From positions 52,340 through 116,339 of the forward strand of contig CAJYQM010000086.1 of the NCBI GenBank assembly GCA_913777025.1: a DNA stretch of 64,000 bases. Reading direction: 5' to 3'. A program made the translations under genes and the position numbers. The stretch is from an uncultured Massilia sp. GTDB lineage: Bacteria > Pseudomonadota > Gammaproteobacteria > Burkholderiales > Burkholderiaceae_D. The notes beneath the pieces were generated by a model. The model was not told the DNA's origin. It made no database searches and was given only the letters and a program-made list of their open reading frames with translations. Shown here one piece after another: positions 8,974 to 38,489 of the stretch. Positions within the stretch are counted from its first letter, which is position 1. Every line of letters begins with the position of its first letter.

Positions 8974-9512
8974 ATCCGGGCCATCCGGCCTGCCTGGCGC
9001 TGCGCATGGCGCTGGCCGGCCGTCCAGGTGCGCGCGTGGCGGTGCTGGCGCTGGGGATCGACGTCGGCGCGCTCGCGTTCGGTGCCGGGCGTTGTCAAGC
9101 GTGGCAGATGGTGGCGGCCATGGGCCTGGCGCTGGCCGGCTGTGTCGTGGCGGCCAGCATGTCGCTGCGGGCGCAGGCGCGGCGGCGCGAGCTGGCGACC
9201 TTGCGCGTGCTCGGCATGTCACGCTGCTGTCTGGTGCTGATGCTGGAACTGGAAGCGCTGTGGATAAGTGGAATCGGCACATTGCTGGGACTGCTCGGCA
9301 GTGGCGCCGCCGAACGCATCGCCGCGCTCTGGCCGGCCAGGCCGGGCGAGCCTGCCGCACTGATCGGTGCGGGTTCCGGAATACCCTTGCTGGCTGGTAT
9401 CTGCAGCATTGCCGGCGTGACTGTCCTGGCCGCGCTGCTGCCGGCCCTCCACGCCGCACGCCGGGACGTGGCGCTTGCGCTGGCGCTGCTGCCGCCCCAC
9501 CAGGACGGCTAG
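8970..9512 (+). CDS. Short FtsX/MacB-like ABC permease domain protein (181 codons)
   Basis: GTG start overlapping stop of ATPase (GTGA); VNPGHPACLALRMALAG...RRRELATLRVLGMSRCCLVLMLELEALWISGIGTLLGLLGSGAAERIA; hydrophobic. Confidence 0.65.
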   Translation: MNPGHPACLALRMALAGRPGARVAVLALGIDVGALAFGAGRCQAWQMVAAMGLALAGCVVAASMSLRAQARRRELATLRVLGMSRCCLVLMLELEALWISGIGTLLGLLGSGAAERIAALWPARPGEPAALIGAGSGIPLLAGICSIAGVTVLAALLPALHAARRDVALALALLPPHQDG

Positions 9513-21570: not shown

Positions 21571-22698
21571 TTGGAGGAAGACATGTTGATTGGCGTTCCC
21601 AAAGAGATCAAGAACAACGAGTACCGGGTCGGGCTCACGCCGCCCAGCGTGCACGAGCTGGTGGCGCGTGGCCACCAGGTCATCGTGCAGGCCGGCGCCG
21701 GGGCCGAGATCGGCCTGGCCGACGAGCAGTACGTGGCGGCTGGCGCCACCCTGATTCACGCCGCGCCCGAGATCTTCGGGCAGGCCGACATGATCGTGAA
21801 GGTCAAGGAACCGCAGCCAGCCGAATGCGCGATGCTGCGTCCAGGACAAATCCTGTACACCTATCTGCACCTGGCGCCGGATCCGGAGCAGACCGCGGCG
21901 CTGGTCGAATCGGGGGCGGTCTGCATCGCCTATGAAACCATCACCGGTGCCGGCGGCGGCTTGCCGCTGCTGGCGCCGATGAGCGAGGTGGCGGGGCGGA
22001 TGGCGATCCAGGCCGGCGCCAGCCACCTGGAAAAGTCGAAGGGCGGCATGGGCCTGCTGCTGGGCGGCGTGCCGGGCGTGGCGGCGGGGCACGTGGTGAT
22101 CCTCGGCGCCGGCGTGGTCGGCACCAATGCGCTGCAAATGGCCATGGGCACGGGTGCCCGCGTTACCGTGCTCGATAAAAACGTCGACCGCCTGCGCCAG
22201 CTCGACCTGGTCTACGGCAACCGTATTTCCACTCTGTATTCGAATGCCCACGCGATCGAGGAAGCGGTGCTGTCGGCCGACCTGGTGATCGGCGGCGTGC
22301 TGGTGCCGGGCGCCGCGGCGCCGAAGCTGGTCACGCGCGCCATGGTGTCGCGCATGAAGGCGGGGTCGGTCGTGGTCGACGTGGCGATCGACCAGGGTGG
22401 CTGCTTCGAGACCTCGCATCCGACCACCCACGCCGATCCGACCTTCGTCGTCGACGGCGTCGTGCACTACTGCGTGGCCAACATGCCGGGCGCGGTGGCA
22501 AGGACGTCGACCTTTGCCCTGAACAACGCCACCATCGGCCACGCCATCGCGCTGGCGAACAAAGGCTGGCAGCAGGCGCTGCGCGACGATCCGCACCTGA
22601 AGGCGGGCCTGAACGTCTGCCAGGGCAAGATCACGCACCAGGCCGTGGCCTGGGACCTGGGCTACGACTACGTGCCGGCCGACACCCTGCTGGCCTGA
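21571..22698 (+). CDS. ald: Alanine dehydrogenase
   Basis: [36 protein letters not shown]. Confidence 0.97.
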
Positions 22699-23462
22699 TT
22701 CGAACTTGCCGCCAGTTCGCGGCAGAACTGCCTGACGATATAAAACGCATAACGCGCGGCCACCGATTTCACGAAGCGCATGAAATCGGTGGCCGCGTTT
22801 TCGTTGGCGTTGTCGGAAATCGTGCGGATCACGCCGAACGGGATCCCGAGCTCGAAACACACCTGCGCCACGGCGGCGCCTTCCATCTCCACCGCCAGCA
22901 AACCCGGCAAAGCCTCGCCAAGGGCCTTTATACGCTCCCTGCCGTTCACGAACTGGTCACCGCTGGCGATGAGGCCCCGATGCAGCCGAGGCGCCTGGAG
23001 CGCGAATACGGCCTGTTCTTCGCTATCGATGACTTCCGCGAACTCGGTGTCGAGAAACGCCTGGGTGGCGTGGCCGAGCTGAAGCGCCAGCTGGCGGTCC
23101 GACAGGAAGTGGGTCTGCCCGGTCAGCGGCACCTCGTGGCGCGGGAACAGGGGACTGGCATCCATGTCGTGCTGGACCAGGGATTCGGCCACCACGACGT
23201 CGCCGACACGGATCGATGGGTCGCCGCTGCCGGCCACGCCGGTGAAGACGATGTGGGTAACACCGAACTTCTCCACAAGCAAAGTCGCCGTCATGGCAGC
23301 GGCAACCTTGCCAATTCGCGATAAAACGCACACAGCGTCGATTTCCCACAGTTTACCTAGCCAGACCTCACGCATGCCATGGATGAGCTTGTAGGGGCCT
23401 TCCATGGCTTCCACGAGGCCTTGCTGTTCTTCGTGCAGAGCGCTGATGATGCCGAGTCGCAT
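22668..23462 (-). CDS. mtnN: 5'-methylthioadenosine/S-adenosylhomocysteine nucleosidase
   Basis: MRLGIISALHEEQQGLVEAM...FTGVAGSGDPSIRVGDVVVAESLVQHDMDASP...AVEMEGAAVAQVCFE. Confidence 0.93.
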   Translation of the reverse strand: MRLGIISALHEEQQGLVEAMEGPYKLIHGMREVWLGKLWEIDAVCVLSRIGKVAAAMTATLLVEKFGVTHIVFTGVAGSGDPSIRVGDVVVAESLVQHDMDASPLFPRHEVPLTGQTHFLSDRQLALQLGHATQAFLDTEFAEVIDSEEQAVFALQAPRLHRGLIASGDQFVNGRERIKALGEALPGLLAVEMEGAAVAQVCFELGIPFGVIRTISDNANENAATDFMRFVKSVAARYAFYIVRQFCRELAASSNQASRVSAGT

Positions 23463-23650
23463 AGTTAACCTTGTCCTGGATGCGTTAACAGCCGTATACG
23501 CATGGTTTACGCCGGATGTTAAACATGGTGTTTAGAAACGATGTATACGCGTTAACGGTGTCGATGTTAACGGGCACGCAGGACGTATATCTGCCTGCGC
23601 TGCGTCTTGCACGCCACTTGTCCTGTCTTTGCTTTAGTAAACCAAGGATG

Positions 23651-23858
23651 TATATAAAAACTGGTAGTAGATAGTAAACGGCGATCCCTTCTGTGGATAA
23701 AGCCGGTTTTGCCTAGCGCATCAATGGTTTACGGTGCTTCGGATCTGCTGGAAAAACATTGTATCTGAGCAGGACATTAACTGGACAAAAAGCGGCGTTA
23801 ACCAGAAAAGTGCTGTTCTGCACATCCGATCCTGTGGATATGCAGGTGTTTTTCCACA
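23651..23858 (+). repeat. Origin-like module A
   Basis: TGTGGATAA 23692; GTTTACG 23727; TGGACAAAAAGCGG 23782; TGTGGATAT 23833; TTTTCCACA 23850. Confidence 0.85.
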
Positions 23859-24105
23859 GTCGAGCCGGATTCCAGCGGTTTTTCGCTGTTTTTCAGTAAA
23901 GGGCTGCCCTGTTTTGCAAGCTGGACCGTATGCACACCCGCGGCCAGCTTCCCTGCGATGCGTTCGCATCGCGTTCTTCCTGTAGACAAAAAAAGCGGGC
24001 AGGCCGAAGGCTTTGCCGTCAGTCCGTATCTTGACGGTCTTTGCCCTGGCGAGCCGGGTTTGTCCACGCGCGTACGCGTTGCCTGTATTAGTTAACTTGA
24101 ATAGA

Positions 24106-24310
24106 TATATAAAACTGGTAGTGATAGTAAACGCGGGCCGCGTTGTGGATAAAGCCGGTTTACTCAACAGGCTCAAGGGTTTACGTAGCAACGAAGGCGC
24201 TGAACAAGACTTGTGTCTGGCGAGGACGTTAACTGGACAAAAAGCGGGCAGTGCACAAATCCGGCAGTTCCGCACATTCGATCCTGTGGATATGCATGGG
24301 TTTATCCACA
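24106..24310 (+). repeat. Origin-like module B
   Basis: TGTGGATAA 24144; GTTTACG 24179; TGGACAAAAAGCGG 24234; TGTGGATAT 24285; TTATCCACA 24302. Confidence 0.88.
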
Positions 24311-24497
24311 ATCGCTGACGAAAAAGCATGTCTGCACCTTGCCGATACGGTTTGAAGACCGGGTTTTGCAGACCCGAGATCAGGCGATGCGATCGAAGCC
24401 GTGTTCGATGCCGCGATCGTCGGACTGGCCGAAGCCGGTTTTTTTTTGGCCCGACGCCGGATTCGAAAGCGGGGTCGTCAGGTTTACAACCAAAAGC

Positions 24498-24707
24498 TTG
24501 TATACAGAATGATGGTAATAGTTAACGTACCTGCTCTTCTGTGGATAAACCCGGTTTTGTCCACAAGATCAGGCGTTTACGTGTCGCATAAGCCGGTGGG
24601 CCGACTCTGTATGTGCCTGGTGGAAAAATTGGACAAAAATCGGCGTGGTGGAAAAAAGCCGGTTTCCTCACATTCGATACCTGTGGATATACAAATGCTT
24701 ATCCACA
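24498..24707 (+). repeat. Origin-like module C
   Basis: TGTGGATAA 24540; GTTTACG 24575; TGGACAAAAATCGG 24630; TGTGGATAT 24682; TTATCCACA 24699. Confidence 0.88.
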
Positions 24708-24875
24708 GCGCATGAACCCTCGTTCAAGGCTTGATCATCTGGTAAGCTTGCTCAACCGAAGCACGTCCGAAGTCGACTTTGCACAGATCGTGAGGCCTAC
24801 CATGGTGTTCCGCATGCTGTCGAAATTGCCGTTGCTGCATCCCGCTCACGTTAACGCCACTCTTCCACCCAGCCT

Positions 24876-32886: not shown

Positions 32887-32902
32887 GGTTTCACGTGAAA
32901 CA
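32887..32902. promoter_or_regulatory. parS centromere site 1
   Basis: GGTTTCACGTGAAACA, 15/16 match to TGTTTCACGTGAAACA. Confidence 0.92.
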
Positions 32903-34027: not shown

Positions 34028-34043
34028 GGTTTCACGTGAAACA
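34028..34043. promoter_or_regulatory. parS centromere site 2
   Basis: GGTTTCACGTGAAACA, 15/16 match to TGTTTCACGTGAAACA; upstream of mnmG. Confidence 0.92.
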
Positions 34044-34132: not shown

Positions 34133-36067
34133 ATGCTATTTCCGACAGAATTCGACGTGATCGTCGTTGGCGGCGGCCATGCCGGCACCGAAGCGGCTCT
34201 CGCGTCCGCACGCATGGGGCAGAAGACCCTGTTGCTTACTCACAATATCGAAACCCTGGGTGCCATGTCCTGCAACCCGTCGATCGGCGGCATCGGCAAG
34301 GGCCACCTGGTCAAGGAAGTCGACGCCATGGGCGGCGCGATGGCCATCGCCACCGACGAAGCCGGCATCCAGTTCCGCATCCTGAACTCGTCGAAAGGGC
34401 CGGCCGTGCGCGCCACCCGGGCCCAGGCCGACCGTGTGCTGTACAAGGCCGCGATCCGCTCGCGCCTGGAAAACCAGCCGAACCTATGGCTGTTCCAGCA
34501 GGCTGTCGACGACTTGCTGGTCGAAGGCGAGCGCGTGGTCGGCGCCGTGACCCAGATCGGCCTGCAATTCCGTGCCCGCGCCGTCGTGCTCACCGCCGGT
34601 ACTTTCCTCGACGGGAAGATCCACGTCGGCCTGCAGAACTACACGGCCGGCCGTGCCGGCGACCCGGCGGCGATCTCGCTGTCGAGCCGCCTGAAGGAAC
34701 TCAAGCTGCCGCAGGGCCGCCTGAAAACCGGCACGCCGCCGCGCATCGACGGGCGCAGCATCGACTTTTCCGTGATGAGCGAACAGCCGGGCGACCTCGA
34801 TCCGGTCCCCGTGTTCTCCTACATGGGCAATGCCGCCATGCACCCGAAGCAGGTGCCGTGCTGGGTCACGCACACGAATGCGCAGACCCACGAGATCATC
34901 CGCAACGGCCTGGACCGCAGCCCGATGTACACCGGCGTGATCGAAGGTGTCGGCCCCAGATACTGCCCCTCGATCGAAGACAAGATCCACCGCTTCGCAA
35001 GTAAGGAATCGCACCAGATCTTCCTGGAACCGGAGGGGCTGACCACCAACGAGTTCTACCCGAACGGGATCTCGACCAGCCTGCCCTTCGACGTGCAGCT
35101 GGCATTGGTGCGCTCGATGCGCGGCCTCGAGAACGCATTCATCCTGCGTCCCGGCTATGCGATCGAATACGACTACTTCGATCCGCGCGGCCTGAAAGCC
35201 TCGCTCGAAACCAGGGCGATCGGGGGCCTGTTCTTTGCCGGCCAGATCAACGGCACCACCGGCTACGAAGAAGCCGCGGCCCAGGGCATGCTGGCCGGTA
35301 TCAACGCCGCGCTGCAGACCCAGGGCAAGGCGGCTTGGACCCCGGGCCGTTCCGAAGCCTACCTTGGCGTGCTGGTCGACGACCTCACGACCCAGGGCGT
35401 GGCCGAGCCCTACCGCATGTTCACCAGCCGTGCCGAGTACCGCCTCTCGCTGCGCGAAGACAATGCCGACATGCGCCTGACGGAAATCGGGCGCAAGCTG
35501 GGCGTGGTCGGCGACGCGCAGTGGGAAGCCTTCGAGCGCAAGCGCGAAGCAGTCGCCCTGGAACTCGAACGCCTGCGTTCGACCTGGGTCAACCCGCGCA
35601 TCCTGGCCGCCGCCGAATCCGAACGCGTGATCGGCCAGGCGATCGAGCGCGAGTACAACCTGGCCGACCTGTTGCGCCGTCCGGGTGTCGAGTACGACAA
35701 GCTGATGAGCATGCAGGGCGTCGATGCCCAGCCGCTGGCGGGGCCAGGCGTGGAGGATCCGGCCGTGAAGGAGCAGGTCGAGATCCAGCTGAAGTATTCG
35801 GGCTATATCAACCGCCAGGCGAAAGAGGTGGAACGCCACGATTACTACGAAAACCTGAAATTGCCGGAAAACCTGAACTACCTCGAGATCGCCGCGCTCT
35901 CAATCGAAGTGCGGCAAAAGCTCGACAAGCAGCGGCCGGAAACCCTGGGCCAGGCCTCGCGCATTTCCGGGGTGACCCCTGCGGCCATTTCCCTGTTGCT
36001 GGTGCACTTGAAAAAGCGCGGGGCCAAGGGTTTTACGGGTGTCCCGAGCGAGGAAACGGCTGAATGA
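34133..36067 (+). CDS. mnmG: tRNA uridine-5-carboxymethylaminomethyl(34) synthesis enzyme MnmG
   Basis: [68 protein letters not shown]. Confidence 0.98.
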
Positions 36068-36714
36068 AGAATTTCGATCGTGCCAATCTCGCCCGTGTGC
36101 TGGAAGAGGGCATCCAGGAAATGGGGCTGGACGTCACGCCGGCCCAGCAGGGCCAGCTGATGGATTACCTGGCCCTGATGTTCAAGTGGAATTCGGTCTA
36201 CAACCTGACCTCGCTGCGCGATCCGCAGCAGATGGTGACGCACCATTTGTTGGACTCGTTGGCGGCGGTGCCGGCCTTCGAGGCGGCCGTCAATGTGCTG
36301 GACGTCGGTTCGGGCGGCGGCCTGCCCGGCATCGTGCTGGCCATCGTGCGCCCCGACATGAAAGTGTCGATGATCGACACCGTGCACAAGAAAACCGCTT
36401 TCCTCACGCAAGTGAAGGCGGAACTGGGCCTGGCCAACGTCACCGTGTACACGATGCGGGTCGAGCAGCTGCAGGTCGAGGATAAATTCGACGTCATCAC
36501 CTCGCGCGCTTTTGCCGACCTCTCCGATTTCGTCAACTGGTCTTCGCACCTGCTGGCCGAGGGCGGGCGCTACATTGCCCTGAAAGGGGTGGCCCCGAAA
36601 GACGAGCAGGAACGGCTGCCGGACACCTGGCGGGTGGCGAAAGTGGAGCCCCTGCAGGTGCCGAGGCTGGGTGCGGAGCGTCACCTGGTGTTCATCGGAC
36701 GACATCAAGACTAA
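36064..36714 (+). CDS. rsmG: 16S rRNA (guanine(527)-N(7))-methyltransferase
   Basis: [30 protein letters not shown]...[16 protein letters not shown]. Confidence 0.96.
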
Positions 36715-36716
36715 CA

Positions 36717-36806
36717 GTATAAATGGTATAAACAGTTTATACCGTTTATACCGTATAAAACATCGTAACTGTATAAATCGTTTTAACGGTATTAACGGTA
36801 TAGAGG
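36717..36806. repeat. 9-bp-period repeat array (GTATAAANN / GTTTATACC / GTWTTAACG) between rsmG and parA
   Basis: Units at 36717, 36726, 36735, 36744, 36753, (36762 degenerate), 36771, 36780, 36789, 36798. Confidence 0.8.
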
Positions 36807-36817
36807 GCAAGGCATAC

Positions 36818-37588
36818 ATGGCGAAAATTTTTTGCGTAGCAAACCAGAAGGGCGGGGTGGGCAAGACCACCACCAGCGTCAACCTGTCGGCGGGCCTGGC
36901 CAAGCTGGACCAGCGCGTGCTGCTGGTCGACCTCGACCCGCAGGGCAACGCGACCATGGGCGCGGGCATCAACAAGGCGGGCCTGCAATCCTCGATCTAT
37001 GAAGTGCTGCTGGGCGAGGCCGACGTCGCCAGCGCGCGCCTGCGCAGCGAAGCGGGGCGCTTCGACGTGCTGCCCGCCAACCGCGAGCTGGCCGGCGCCG
37101 AAGTCGAGATGGTGGAACTCGAGAACCGAGAACGGCGCCTGAAGGAGGCGCTGGCCAAGGTCGACGCCGACTACGACTTCATCCTGATCGACTGCCCGCC
37201 GGCGCTGTCGATGCTGACCTTGAACGGCCTGGTGTCGGCGCACGGCGTGATCATCCCGATGCAGTGCGAGTACTACGCGCTCGAGGGCCTGTCGGACCTG
37301 GTCAACACGATCAAGAAGGTGCACGCCAACCTGAACCACGACCTCAAGATCATCGGCCTGCTGCGCGTGATGTTCGATCCGCGCATGACGCTGTCGCAGC
37401 AGGTCTCGGCCCAGCTCGAGCAGCACTTCGGCGACAAGGTCTTCAAGACCATCATCCCGCGCAACGTGCGCCTGGCCGAGGCGCCGTCGTACGGCATCCC
37501 GGGCGTGACCTTCGATCCGTCGTCGAAAGGGGCGCAAGCGTATATCGCCTTCGGCGCCGAGATGGTCGAGCGCATCAAGACTATGTAA
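36818..37588 (+). CDS. parA: Chromosome-partitioning ATPase ParA
   Basis: MAKIFCVANQKGGVGKTTTSVNLSAGLAKLDQRVLLVDLDPQGNATMGAG; start trimmed from ORF track start 36671. Confidence 0.97.
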   Translation: MAKIFCVANQKGGVGKTTTSVNLSAGLAKLDQRVLLVDLDPQGNATMGAGINKAGLQSSIYEVLLGEADVASARLRSEAGRFDVLPANRELAGAEVEMVELENRERRLKEALAKVDADYDFILIDCPPALSMLTLNGLVSAHGVIIPMQCEYYALEGLSDLVNTIKKVHANLNHDLKIIGLLRVMFDPRMTLSQQVSAQLEQHFGDKVFKTIIPRNVRLAEAPSYGIPGVTFDPSSKGAQAYIAFGAEMVERIKTM

Positions 37589-37607: not shown

Positions 37608-38489
37608 ATGGCAAGCAAAAAATTCAAGGGCCTGGGCCGCGGCCTCGACGCCCTGCTCGGTGGAGACGCCCAGGAAGCGCCGGCCGCACCCGGCGGCGCG
37701 CCGTCGACGCTGAAGGTCAACCAGATCCAGGCCGGCAAGTACCAGCCGCGCACGCGCATGGACGACGGCTCGCTGCAGGAACTGGCGGCGTCGATCAAAA
37801 GCCAGGGCATCATGCAACCGGTGCTGGTGCGTCCGATCGCCGCCAGCGGCAGCGTGGCTTATGAAATCATCGCCGGCGAACGCCGTTTCCGCGCGGCCCA
37901 GCTCGCCGGCCTGGACGAGATCCCGGTGCTGGTGCGCGAAGTCGACGACCAGAACGCCGCCGCGATGGCCCTGATCGAGAACATCCAGCGCGAAGACCTG
38001 AATCCGCTGGAAGAGGCGCAGGGCATCGCGCGCCTGATCTCGGAATTCGATTTCACCCACGAGCAGGCGGCCAACGCCGTCGGCCGTTCGCGCAGCGCGG
38101 TGTCGAACCTGCTGCGCCTGGTGAACCTGGCCCAGCCGGTCCAGACCATGCTGATGGCCGGCGACATCGACATGGGCCATGCGCGCGCGCTGCTGGCCGT
38201 CGACAGCGCGAGCCAGATCGCGCTGGCCAACCAGGTGATCGCGAAACGCCTGTCGGTGCGCGAAACCGAGAAACTGGTGGCGCGCGCGCTGGAAGAACAG
38301 GACGCGCCCGCGGCCGCCGCACGCCAGAAGGAAAAGTCGGGCGACATCGTGCGCCTGGAGGAAGAACTGTCAGACCGCCTGGCGACCCCGGTGGCGTTCA
38401 AGATGGGCACGAAGGGCAGGGGGCAGATGATCATCGACTTCGCCGATCTCGACGTGCTCGACAGCGTGCTGGCGCGCCTGCGGGCCTGA
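37608..38489 (+). CDS. parB: Chromosome-partitioning CTPase/DNA-binding protein ParB
   Basis: KFKGLGRGLDALLGGD...VNQIQAGKYQPRTRMDDGSLQELAASIKSQGIMQPVLVRP...GERRFRAAQLAGL. Confidence 0.97.
   Translation: MASKKFKGLGRGLDALLGGDAQEAPAAPGGAPSTLKVNQIQAGKYQPRTRMDDGSLQELAASIKSQGIMQPVLVRPIAASGSVAYEIIAGERRFRAAQLAGLDEIPVLVREVDDQNAAAMALIENIQREDLNPLEEAQGIARLISEFDFTHEQAANAVGRSRSAVSNLLRLVNLAQPVQTMLMAGDIDMGHARALLAVDSASQIALANQVIAKRLSVRETEKLVARALEEQDAPAAAARQKEKSGDIVRLEEELSDRLATPVAFKMGTKGRGQMIIDFADLDVLDSVLARLRA

Follow-up and report, generated by a model that had tools for sequence, protein, structure and literature searches.

What is the intergenic locus in this stretch of Massilia DNA, and how many places for unwinding does it hold? 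Bacterial origins are taught as possessing one DUE per chromosome. The window analyzed here is the whole stretch of 64,000 nucleotides (G000:C86:52340-116339) taken from a fragmented Massilia assembly of 542 contigs. An earlier note, made from the letters alone, had described three elements in it that resemble the bacterial basal unwinding system (BUS), all in one locus and in the same orientation, and had considered three potential unwinding points unusual. The question is thus whether the locus is an origin of replication, whether the three elements are parts of something larger, and whether they were kept by selection or arose by chance.

Three complete cores in one intergenic region

Three co-oriented elements are located at 23640-23700, 24095-24152, and 24488-24548. 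In each, an AT-rich tract is followed by an array that ends in GTAAAC or GTTAAC and whose five triplets all begin with T, and then by a short spacer and the DnaA box TGTGGATAA. The three strings quoted in the earlier note were all found in place and in one orientation. Its description of the BUS-like unit as the repeat was accurate as far as it went, as the unit is present three times but forms only the left end of a module of ∼230 bp. The right end of each module, TGTGGATAT-N8-TTATCCACA, is invariant and lies 158-159 bp from the first box. With a BUS-like left end joined to this right end, and with DUE, R1, and R4 spacing, each module amounts to an entire origin core like that of E. coli, beyond a BUS alone. 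The modules (A, B, and C) are direct repeats in three copies with spacings of 452 and 396 bp. Their features are as follows.

23463..24875, unstranded: oriC intergenic region, 1413 bp, flanked by mtnN (-) and a GMC-type oxidoreductase gene (+)
23637..23868, +: module A, first complete core (profile match G000:C86:75977-76203, E 1.8e-38)
23640..23661, +: A, predicted unwinding tract, AT rich
23662..23677, +: A, triplet array TGG TAG TAG (A) TAG TAA, with one 1-nt slip
23674..23679, +: A, GTAAAC (GTWWAC) at the triplet-spacer junction
23680..23691, +: A, spacer of 12 nt (11 nt in nearly all orthologues)
23692..23700, +: A, DnaA box TGTGGATAA, R1-like
23833..23858, +: A, right end TGTGGATAT ... 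TTTTCCACA, R4-like, 158 bp from R1
24089..24320, +: module B, second complete core (profile match G000:C86:76437-76654, E 1.4e-39)
24095..24115, +: B, predicted unwinding tract, AT rich and the least stable among A, B, and C
24116..24130, +: B, triplet array TGG TAG TGA TAG TAA
24127..24132, +: B, GTAAAC at the triplet-spacer junction
24133..24143, +: B, spacer of 11 nt
24144..24152, +: B, DnaA box TGTGGATAA, R1-like
24285..24310, +: B, right end TGTGGATAT ... TTATCCACA, 158 bp from R1
24485..24717, +: module C, third complete core (profile match G000:C86:76831-77050, E 1.8e-39)
24488..24509, +: C, predicted unwinding tract, AT rich
24510..24524, +: C, triplet array TGA TGG TAA TAG TTA
24521..24526, +: C, GTTAAC at the triplet-spacer junction
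24527..24539, +: C, spacer of 13 nt
24540..24548, +: C, DnaA box TGTGGATAA, R1-like
24682..24707, +: C, right end TGTGGATAT ... TTATCCACA, 159 bp from R1

The same layout recurred in the 80 Oxalobacteraceae loci adjoining mtnN that we compared. In practically every module of this set, TGTGGATAA and TTATCCACA (R1 and R4) are 157-160 bp apart, and the right end reads TCCTGTGGATAT-N8-TTATCCACA. The approximately 125 bp between TGTGGATAA and the right end carry ATCA-N(3-4)-GTTTAC-like and TGGACAAAAA motifs. The E. coli-type order of DUE, R1, and R4, with convergent outer boxes, is present in every module. The IHF consensus is only approximate; no exact copy occurs in the intergenic region (23463-24875) or inside the modules.

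The locus is the chromosomal origin

Several lines of evidence identify the locus as the chromosomal oriC of a Massilia species. Exact copies of TTATCCACA number seven in the 64-kb window (0.12 expected by shuffling), and five of these fall inside the 1413-bp intergenic region 23463-24875. This cluster of DnaA boxes lies in relatively AT-rich DNA, the intergenic region having a GC content of 0.54 versus 0.60-0.70 for most of the window. Origin-linked genes and the partition system are close by: mnmG, rsmG, parA, parB, and the start of the atp operon lie 9-16 kb from the modules, and each of the six genomes tested has parS-like sites at a distance of ∼8-12 kb from them. The neighbors in the window are as follows.

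22668..23462, -: mtnN, MTA/SAH nucleosidase, left neighbor of the oriC region
32887..32902, unstranded: parS-like site GGTTTCACGTGAAACA
34028..34043, unstranded: parS-like site GGTTTCACGTGAAACA
34133..36067, +: mnmG (gidA)
36064..36714, +: rsmG (gidB), assigned by position and sequence
36671..37588, +: parA-type ATPase, true start probably further in
37608..38489, +: parB

The GC-skew switch was located in a complete chromosome of a sister genus (G083, probably Janthinobacterium as judged from its module sequence). In its coordinates, dnaA starts at base 1 and the modules occupy 363.2-364.3 kb, ∼0.36 Mb from dnaA. Mean skew was -0.016 over 0-350 kb and +0.021 from 360 kb to 3.2 Mb, being positive in 16/16 sampled windows of the latter interval (p 6e-5), and it was negative again from 3.6 Mb onward. 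With two change points, the best fit put the origin in the interval from the 340-kb to the 360-kb window and the terminus at 3.2-3.6 Mb. In Massilia genomes G022 and G011, both GC skew and fourfold-site skew were too weak and noisy to place the origin. The dif site of G022, at 3.971 Mb, is 23 kb away from the antipode of the locus (3.948 Mb), a good agreement confined to this genome; the offset was ∼0.2 Mb in G011 and G021, and dif was far off in G006.

An origin at dnaA was rejected on the basis of GC skew in G083, box count, and GTWWAC content, as the dnaA loci of six genomes contain one exact DnaA box each and dnaA loci have almost no GTWWAC. Genome records by convention start at dnaA or oriC. 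In other families of the order, the module profile mostly matches once per genome, and the single match in six complete genomes from these families is 1.2-1.7 kb away from base 1. The origin is put at dnaA-dnaN-gyrB in the genome papers for Janthinobacterium HH01 and Herbaspirillum seropedicae. In light of the skew result for the sister genus, these published origins should be re-examined; they are probably 0.3-0.4 Mb off if the two genomes follow G083.

The same two papers, which concern related genera, would favor a different account: dnaA would mark the true origin, and the locus would be a datA/DARS-like site near the centromere that titrates or reactivates DnaA. The many DnaA boxes at the locus would also suit such a site. 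We regard this account as very unlikely, as the skew of G083 flips at the modules rather than at dnaA, the dnaA loci have the sparse box and GTWWAC content given above, titration sites need neither a DUE nor triplet arrays, and a separate datA-like array exists elsewhere in the genome. The isolated intergenic place away from dnaA could likewise be expected if the locus were the origin of a secondary replicon or of an integrated plasmid or prophage. That proposal is scarcely credible: it is refuted by synteny, the locus occupying the same mtnN-adjacent place in 80 relatives (Oxalobacteraceae), and it conflicts with the housekeeping neighbors, with parS, and with module matches in 38 of 41 genera.

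Two further groups of DnaA boxes were observed. Single exact boxes are enriched for tens of kilobases around the origin (window positions 9259 and 14337; G006:C7:3360992-3422444). A second DnaA-box locus (G000:C141:5935-6913; L304; L167, L168, L169, and L170) lies upstream of an XseA-like gene and comprises five to seven tandem TGTGGA(T/C/A)AA-N-ATTGTG units, most with an exact or near-exact IHF consensus ∼40 bp downstream. Similar repeats are present in G083, G222, and G250, and the array looks like a DnaA-control site of the datA/DARS type. The second TTATCCACA cluster per genome was rejected as a second origin, as it is datA-like and carries no triplet arrays.

The left end of each module resembles a BUS

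The full pattern of triplet array, GTWAAC, 11-13 nt, and TGTGGATAA has exactly three occurrences in the 64 kb, one in each module; none was present in 6,000 simulated sequences of matched length and dinucleotide composition. The AT-rich tracts rank among the least stable 40-mers of the window (top 0.23% for A, 0.04% for B, and 0.51% for C). Among 199 homologous modules, 188 have at least five T-initial triplets (exactly five in 186), some with a 1-nt slip; only 1.7% of anchored shuffles contained at least four. GTWAAC followed by a spacer was found in 195 of the 199, with spacer lengths of 11 nt (n = 130), 13 nt (n = 58), and 12 nt (n = 7). These lengths are conserved by position at 11, 11, and 13 nt for A, B, and C (module A of the window has 12 nt). 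With its length fixed and its sequence almost free, the spacer is as would be expected of a filament-loading gap.

The earlier note had read the triplets as DnaA-trio-like and the spacer as GC rich, and neither reading survived in a strict form. The strict DnaA-trio rule calls for an unbroken run of at least three NAN triplets no more than 16 nt from the box (PMC8287927), and the best runs in the window modules were 2, 2, and 1. The triplets here are T-purine-purine, with TGG or TGA among them and 1-nt slips, and thus break the NAN rule. Runs that satisfy it were found in 65/199 homologous modules and in 43% of shuffles, so the rule is not discriminating in this instance. As for the spacer, its mean GC content (0.57 in 195 modules) is below the 0.60-0.70 of most of the window, and it is GC rich only relative to its flanks (0.23 for the 20-nt tract and 0.29 for the array). 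In Massilia modules A, B, and C, the last 11 nt before the box have GC contents of 0.60, 0.66, and 0.57, respectively.

The remaining sequence features of a BUS are present. An exact TGTGGATAA adjoins the array in all three modules, where a DnaA box with up to two mismatches would suffice, and the distance from GTWAAC to the box is 12, 11, and 13 nt, within the 16 nt allowed. Thus, the claim that a BUS-like element heads each module holds for the tract, the array, the fixed-length spacer, and the co-oriented box, and fails for the strict trio rule. We infer that the element would work like a BUS with a variant triplet array, and we do not file it as a strict BUS. That the trio rule is broken could also mean that the triplets have no unwinding function and are AT-rich sequence flanking the DnaA boxes by chance. 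We consider this exceedingly improbable in view of the triplet counts relative to shuffles, the absence of the full pattern from the simulations, and the conservation of both position and spacer length.

GTWWAC sites and their probable methyltransferase

In Ralstonia and Burkholderia, an orphan adenine methyltransferase acts on GTWWAC, which includes GTTAAC and GTAAAC (PMC5390034, PMC7364216). For Burkholderia cenocepacia, GTWWAC methylation in replicon origins and enlarged nucleoids in the methyltransferase mutant have been described (PMC7364216). Within the window, 21 of 29 GTWWAC sites fall in the 1413-bp intergenic region, including 9/9 GTTAAC; the expected number is 1.7, and the maximum in 500 simulations was 5. 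None of nine palindrome classes of the same shape was enriched in the intergenic region. A GTWWAC stands at the triplet-spacer junction in 195/199 modules, with a second site near +35 in 121. Of the 20-kb stretches sampled in G022, G083, and G011, the richest in GTWWAC were the origin stretches. Seven of the 21 intergenic GTWWAC sites are in the 110 bp adjoining mtnN, outside any module.

The genome of the window has one PF01555 methyltransferase gene (L305, G000:C405), beside hisD- and hisC-like genes. G022 likewise has one, between hisD- and hisC-like genes, and G083 has two matches, one of them below the cutoff. The enzyme of the window genome matched PDB entry 8urk, which we take to be the GTWWAC enzyme M.BceJIV, with an E value of 4e-119, and CcrM with an E value of 2.5e-26. 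This CcrM-class PF01555 enzyme, with one clear copy per genome, is the probable GTWWAC methyltransferase. The genome combines a motif enriched in oriC with an encoded methyltransferase, the combination expected of a methylation-controlled origin of the GATC/SeqA or CcrM type.

The modules are widespread and anciently duplicated

In the genome of the window, the module profile gave exactly three matches at E≤1.8e-38, and the next match had an E value of 1.7. Among 33 Massilia genomes, 26 contain three modules, four contain two, and three contain four, where the fourth match may be a weak antisense match (e.g., G250). Across the family, at least one module was found in 290/298 genomes and 38/41 genera, commonly two to four, with cores usually 0.4-1 kb apart within a locus. 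Three unwinding points would be unusual, as the earlier note had stated, when set against model bacteria; within the family, two to four cores are the rule. In two loci (L044 and L118), the last module is 1.7-2.2 kb from its neighbor versus the usual ∼0.4 kb, indicating an insertion between the cores.

The orientation of the cores varies. The two cores are inverted in G157, G054, G184, and G076, and G157 and G168, which belong to one genus, differ in core inversion. The two inverted cores of G184 (L240) have identical 45-nt BUS strings, the array included, suggesting gene conversion or else an inverted duplication that took place recently.

The module tree separates a GTTAAC class (34 rows, support of 97) from the GTAAAC class. 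It requires 11 changes for position in the locus and 103 for species; the modules group by position, not by species, and the duplication is thus ancient. Judging from this tree, it took place before Massilia, Janthinobacterium, Duganella, and relatives diverged, and the module copies are mostly not homogenized. The same counts (11 versus 103) rule out both concerted evolution among the Massilia modules and their recent duplication.

Sequence identity in Massilia differs by element. For modules A, B, and C, respectively, it is 0.74, 0.85, and 0.69 in the 18-nt array; 0.96, 0.99, and 0.94 in the box; 0.50, 0.44, and 0.50 in the spacer; and 0.29, 0.28, and 0.34 in the downstream linker. On this comparison, all three module positions are under constraint in Massilia. 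The R1 box itself varies, being often TGTGGACAA or TGTGGAAAA in module C and sometimes TGTTGATAA in module A.

How the origin may work

We consider it probable that the locus is a single oriC made of three tandem, co-oriented, complete cores derived from an ancient duplication, each resembling those of E. coli and B. subtilis and probably gated by methylation. In each core, DnaA would bind the R1-like TGTGGATAA and the convergent right-end pair TGTGGATAT/TTATCCACA. A DnaA filament would then load across the short spacer onto the triplet array and melt the AT-rich tract upstream of the triplets. The junction GTWWAC, with ∼18 others in 1.4 kb, would probably allow the CcrM-class methyltransferase to set the timing of firing or to prevent it. 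After replication, refiring could be held back by methylation of the junction site, as it is by GATC and SeqA (Dam) in E. coli. Both DnaA action at each core and regulation of the cores by methylation are predictions from sequence, as is the homology-based link to the methyltransferase.

The cores may not contribute equally. Module B, whose tract is the least stable and whose array and box are the best conserved, is the strongest candidate and likeliest main site, and A and C may be alternative or helper firing sites. The fixed architecture of the three cores, together with the inversions tolerated in other genera, suggests autonomous cores. A fuller proposition, which we consider somewhat less likely than not, is that each of the three modules can bind DnaA, melt, and load helicase, that one or several are used per cycle, and that GTWWAC hemimethylation gates each.

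A serious, if somewhat doubtful, alternative is that the locus is oriC but that one module, most likely B, melts and the other two load or titrate DnaA. The properties of B just listed are consistent with this, as are the R1 variants in C and A of Massilia and the precedent of bipartite origins, which have DnaA boxes in two subregions (PMC8235120). Counting against it, all three modules conserve the tract and array along with the fixed spacer and the GTWWAC at the junction, and pure binding sites would need no array or fixed spacer. Furthermore, inverted modules can both keep the array, as in G184.

Relation to known origins

The three-core oriC resembles that of E. coli in having an AT-rich DUE to the left of a co-oriented TGTGGATAA (R1), with a convergent TTATCCACA (R4) at the right end, in having mnmG nearby at a site away from dnaA, and in being rich in an adenine-methylation palindrome (GATC in E. 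coli, GTWWAC here). In contrast, E. coli has one core with R1 and R4 180 bp apart, whereas three cores with a distance of 157-160 bp are found here; the right end is a tight TGTGGATAT/TTATCCACA pair, and the IHF site is weakly matched. The BUS of B. subtilis and other bacteria shares the succession of DUE, triplets, a spacer of 10-16 nt, and DnaA box, as well as the orientation (PMC6669920, PMC8287927, PMC10721633). It differs from the present elements in that three of these occur per origin, with GTWWAC at the junction and one clear box instead of a tandem pair.

The bipartite origins of B. subtilis and Helicobacter pylori likewise have DnaA-box clusters in separate subregions of one origin. 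Their subregions are unlike and share one unwinding function, whereas here whole cores are repeated, each with a predicted DUE. Burkholderia cenocepacia also has GTWWAC in its origins, methylated there on all replicons, along with CACAG methylation; the part of that report consulted describes neither multiple cores nor a junction-fixed GTWWAC (PMC7364216). More than one origin-like element per chromosome is known from the two autonomously replicating elements of Pseudomonas aeruginosa and from double origins in DoriC (PMC4403523). Those are separate loci or duplicated dnaA regions, unlike the cores described here, which are 0.4 kb apart in one intergenic region.

Implications

Origins, BUS elements, and origin methylation were already known. 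Relative to the open-access literature searched, what is new is the presence of three complete paralogous cores, each with a predicted unwinding element that includes a methylation site in a constant place. That open-access search retrieved no tandem, tripartite, or multi-DUE oriC and no Oxalobacteraceae origins of this kind. Because the methylation site has a fixed place in the unwinding element, methylation control of melting is directly testable.

For these genera, the likely origin shifts to ∼0.3-0.4 Mb away from dnaA, and published annotations would be corrected accordingly. With two to four complete cores that persist as distinct paralogues, the family offers natural material on whether DnaA chooses among unwinding sites. 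Such multicore origins let one ask why the extra cores are kept and, with inverted cores in some genera, whether orientation matters.
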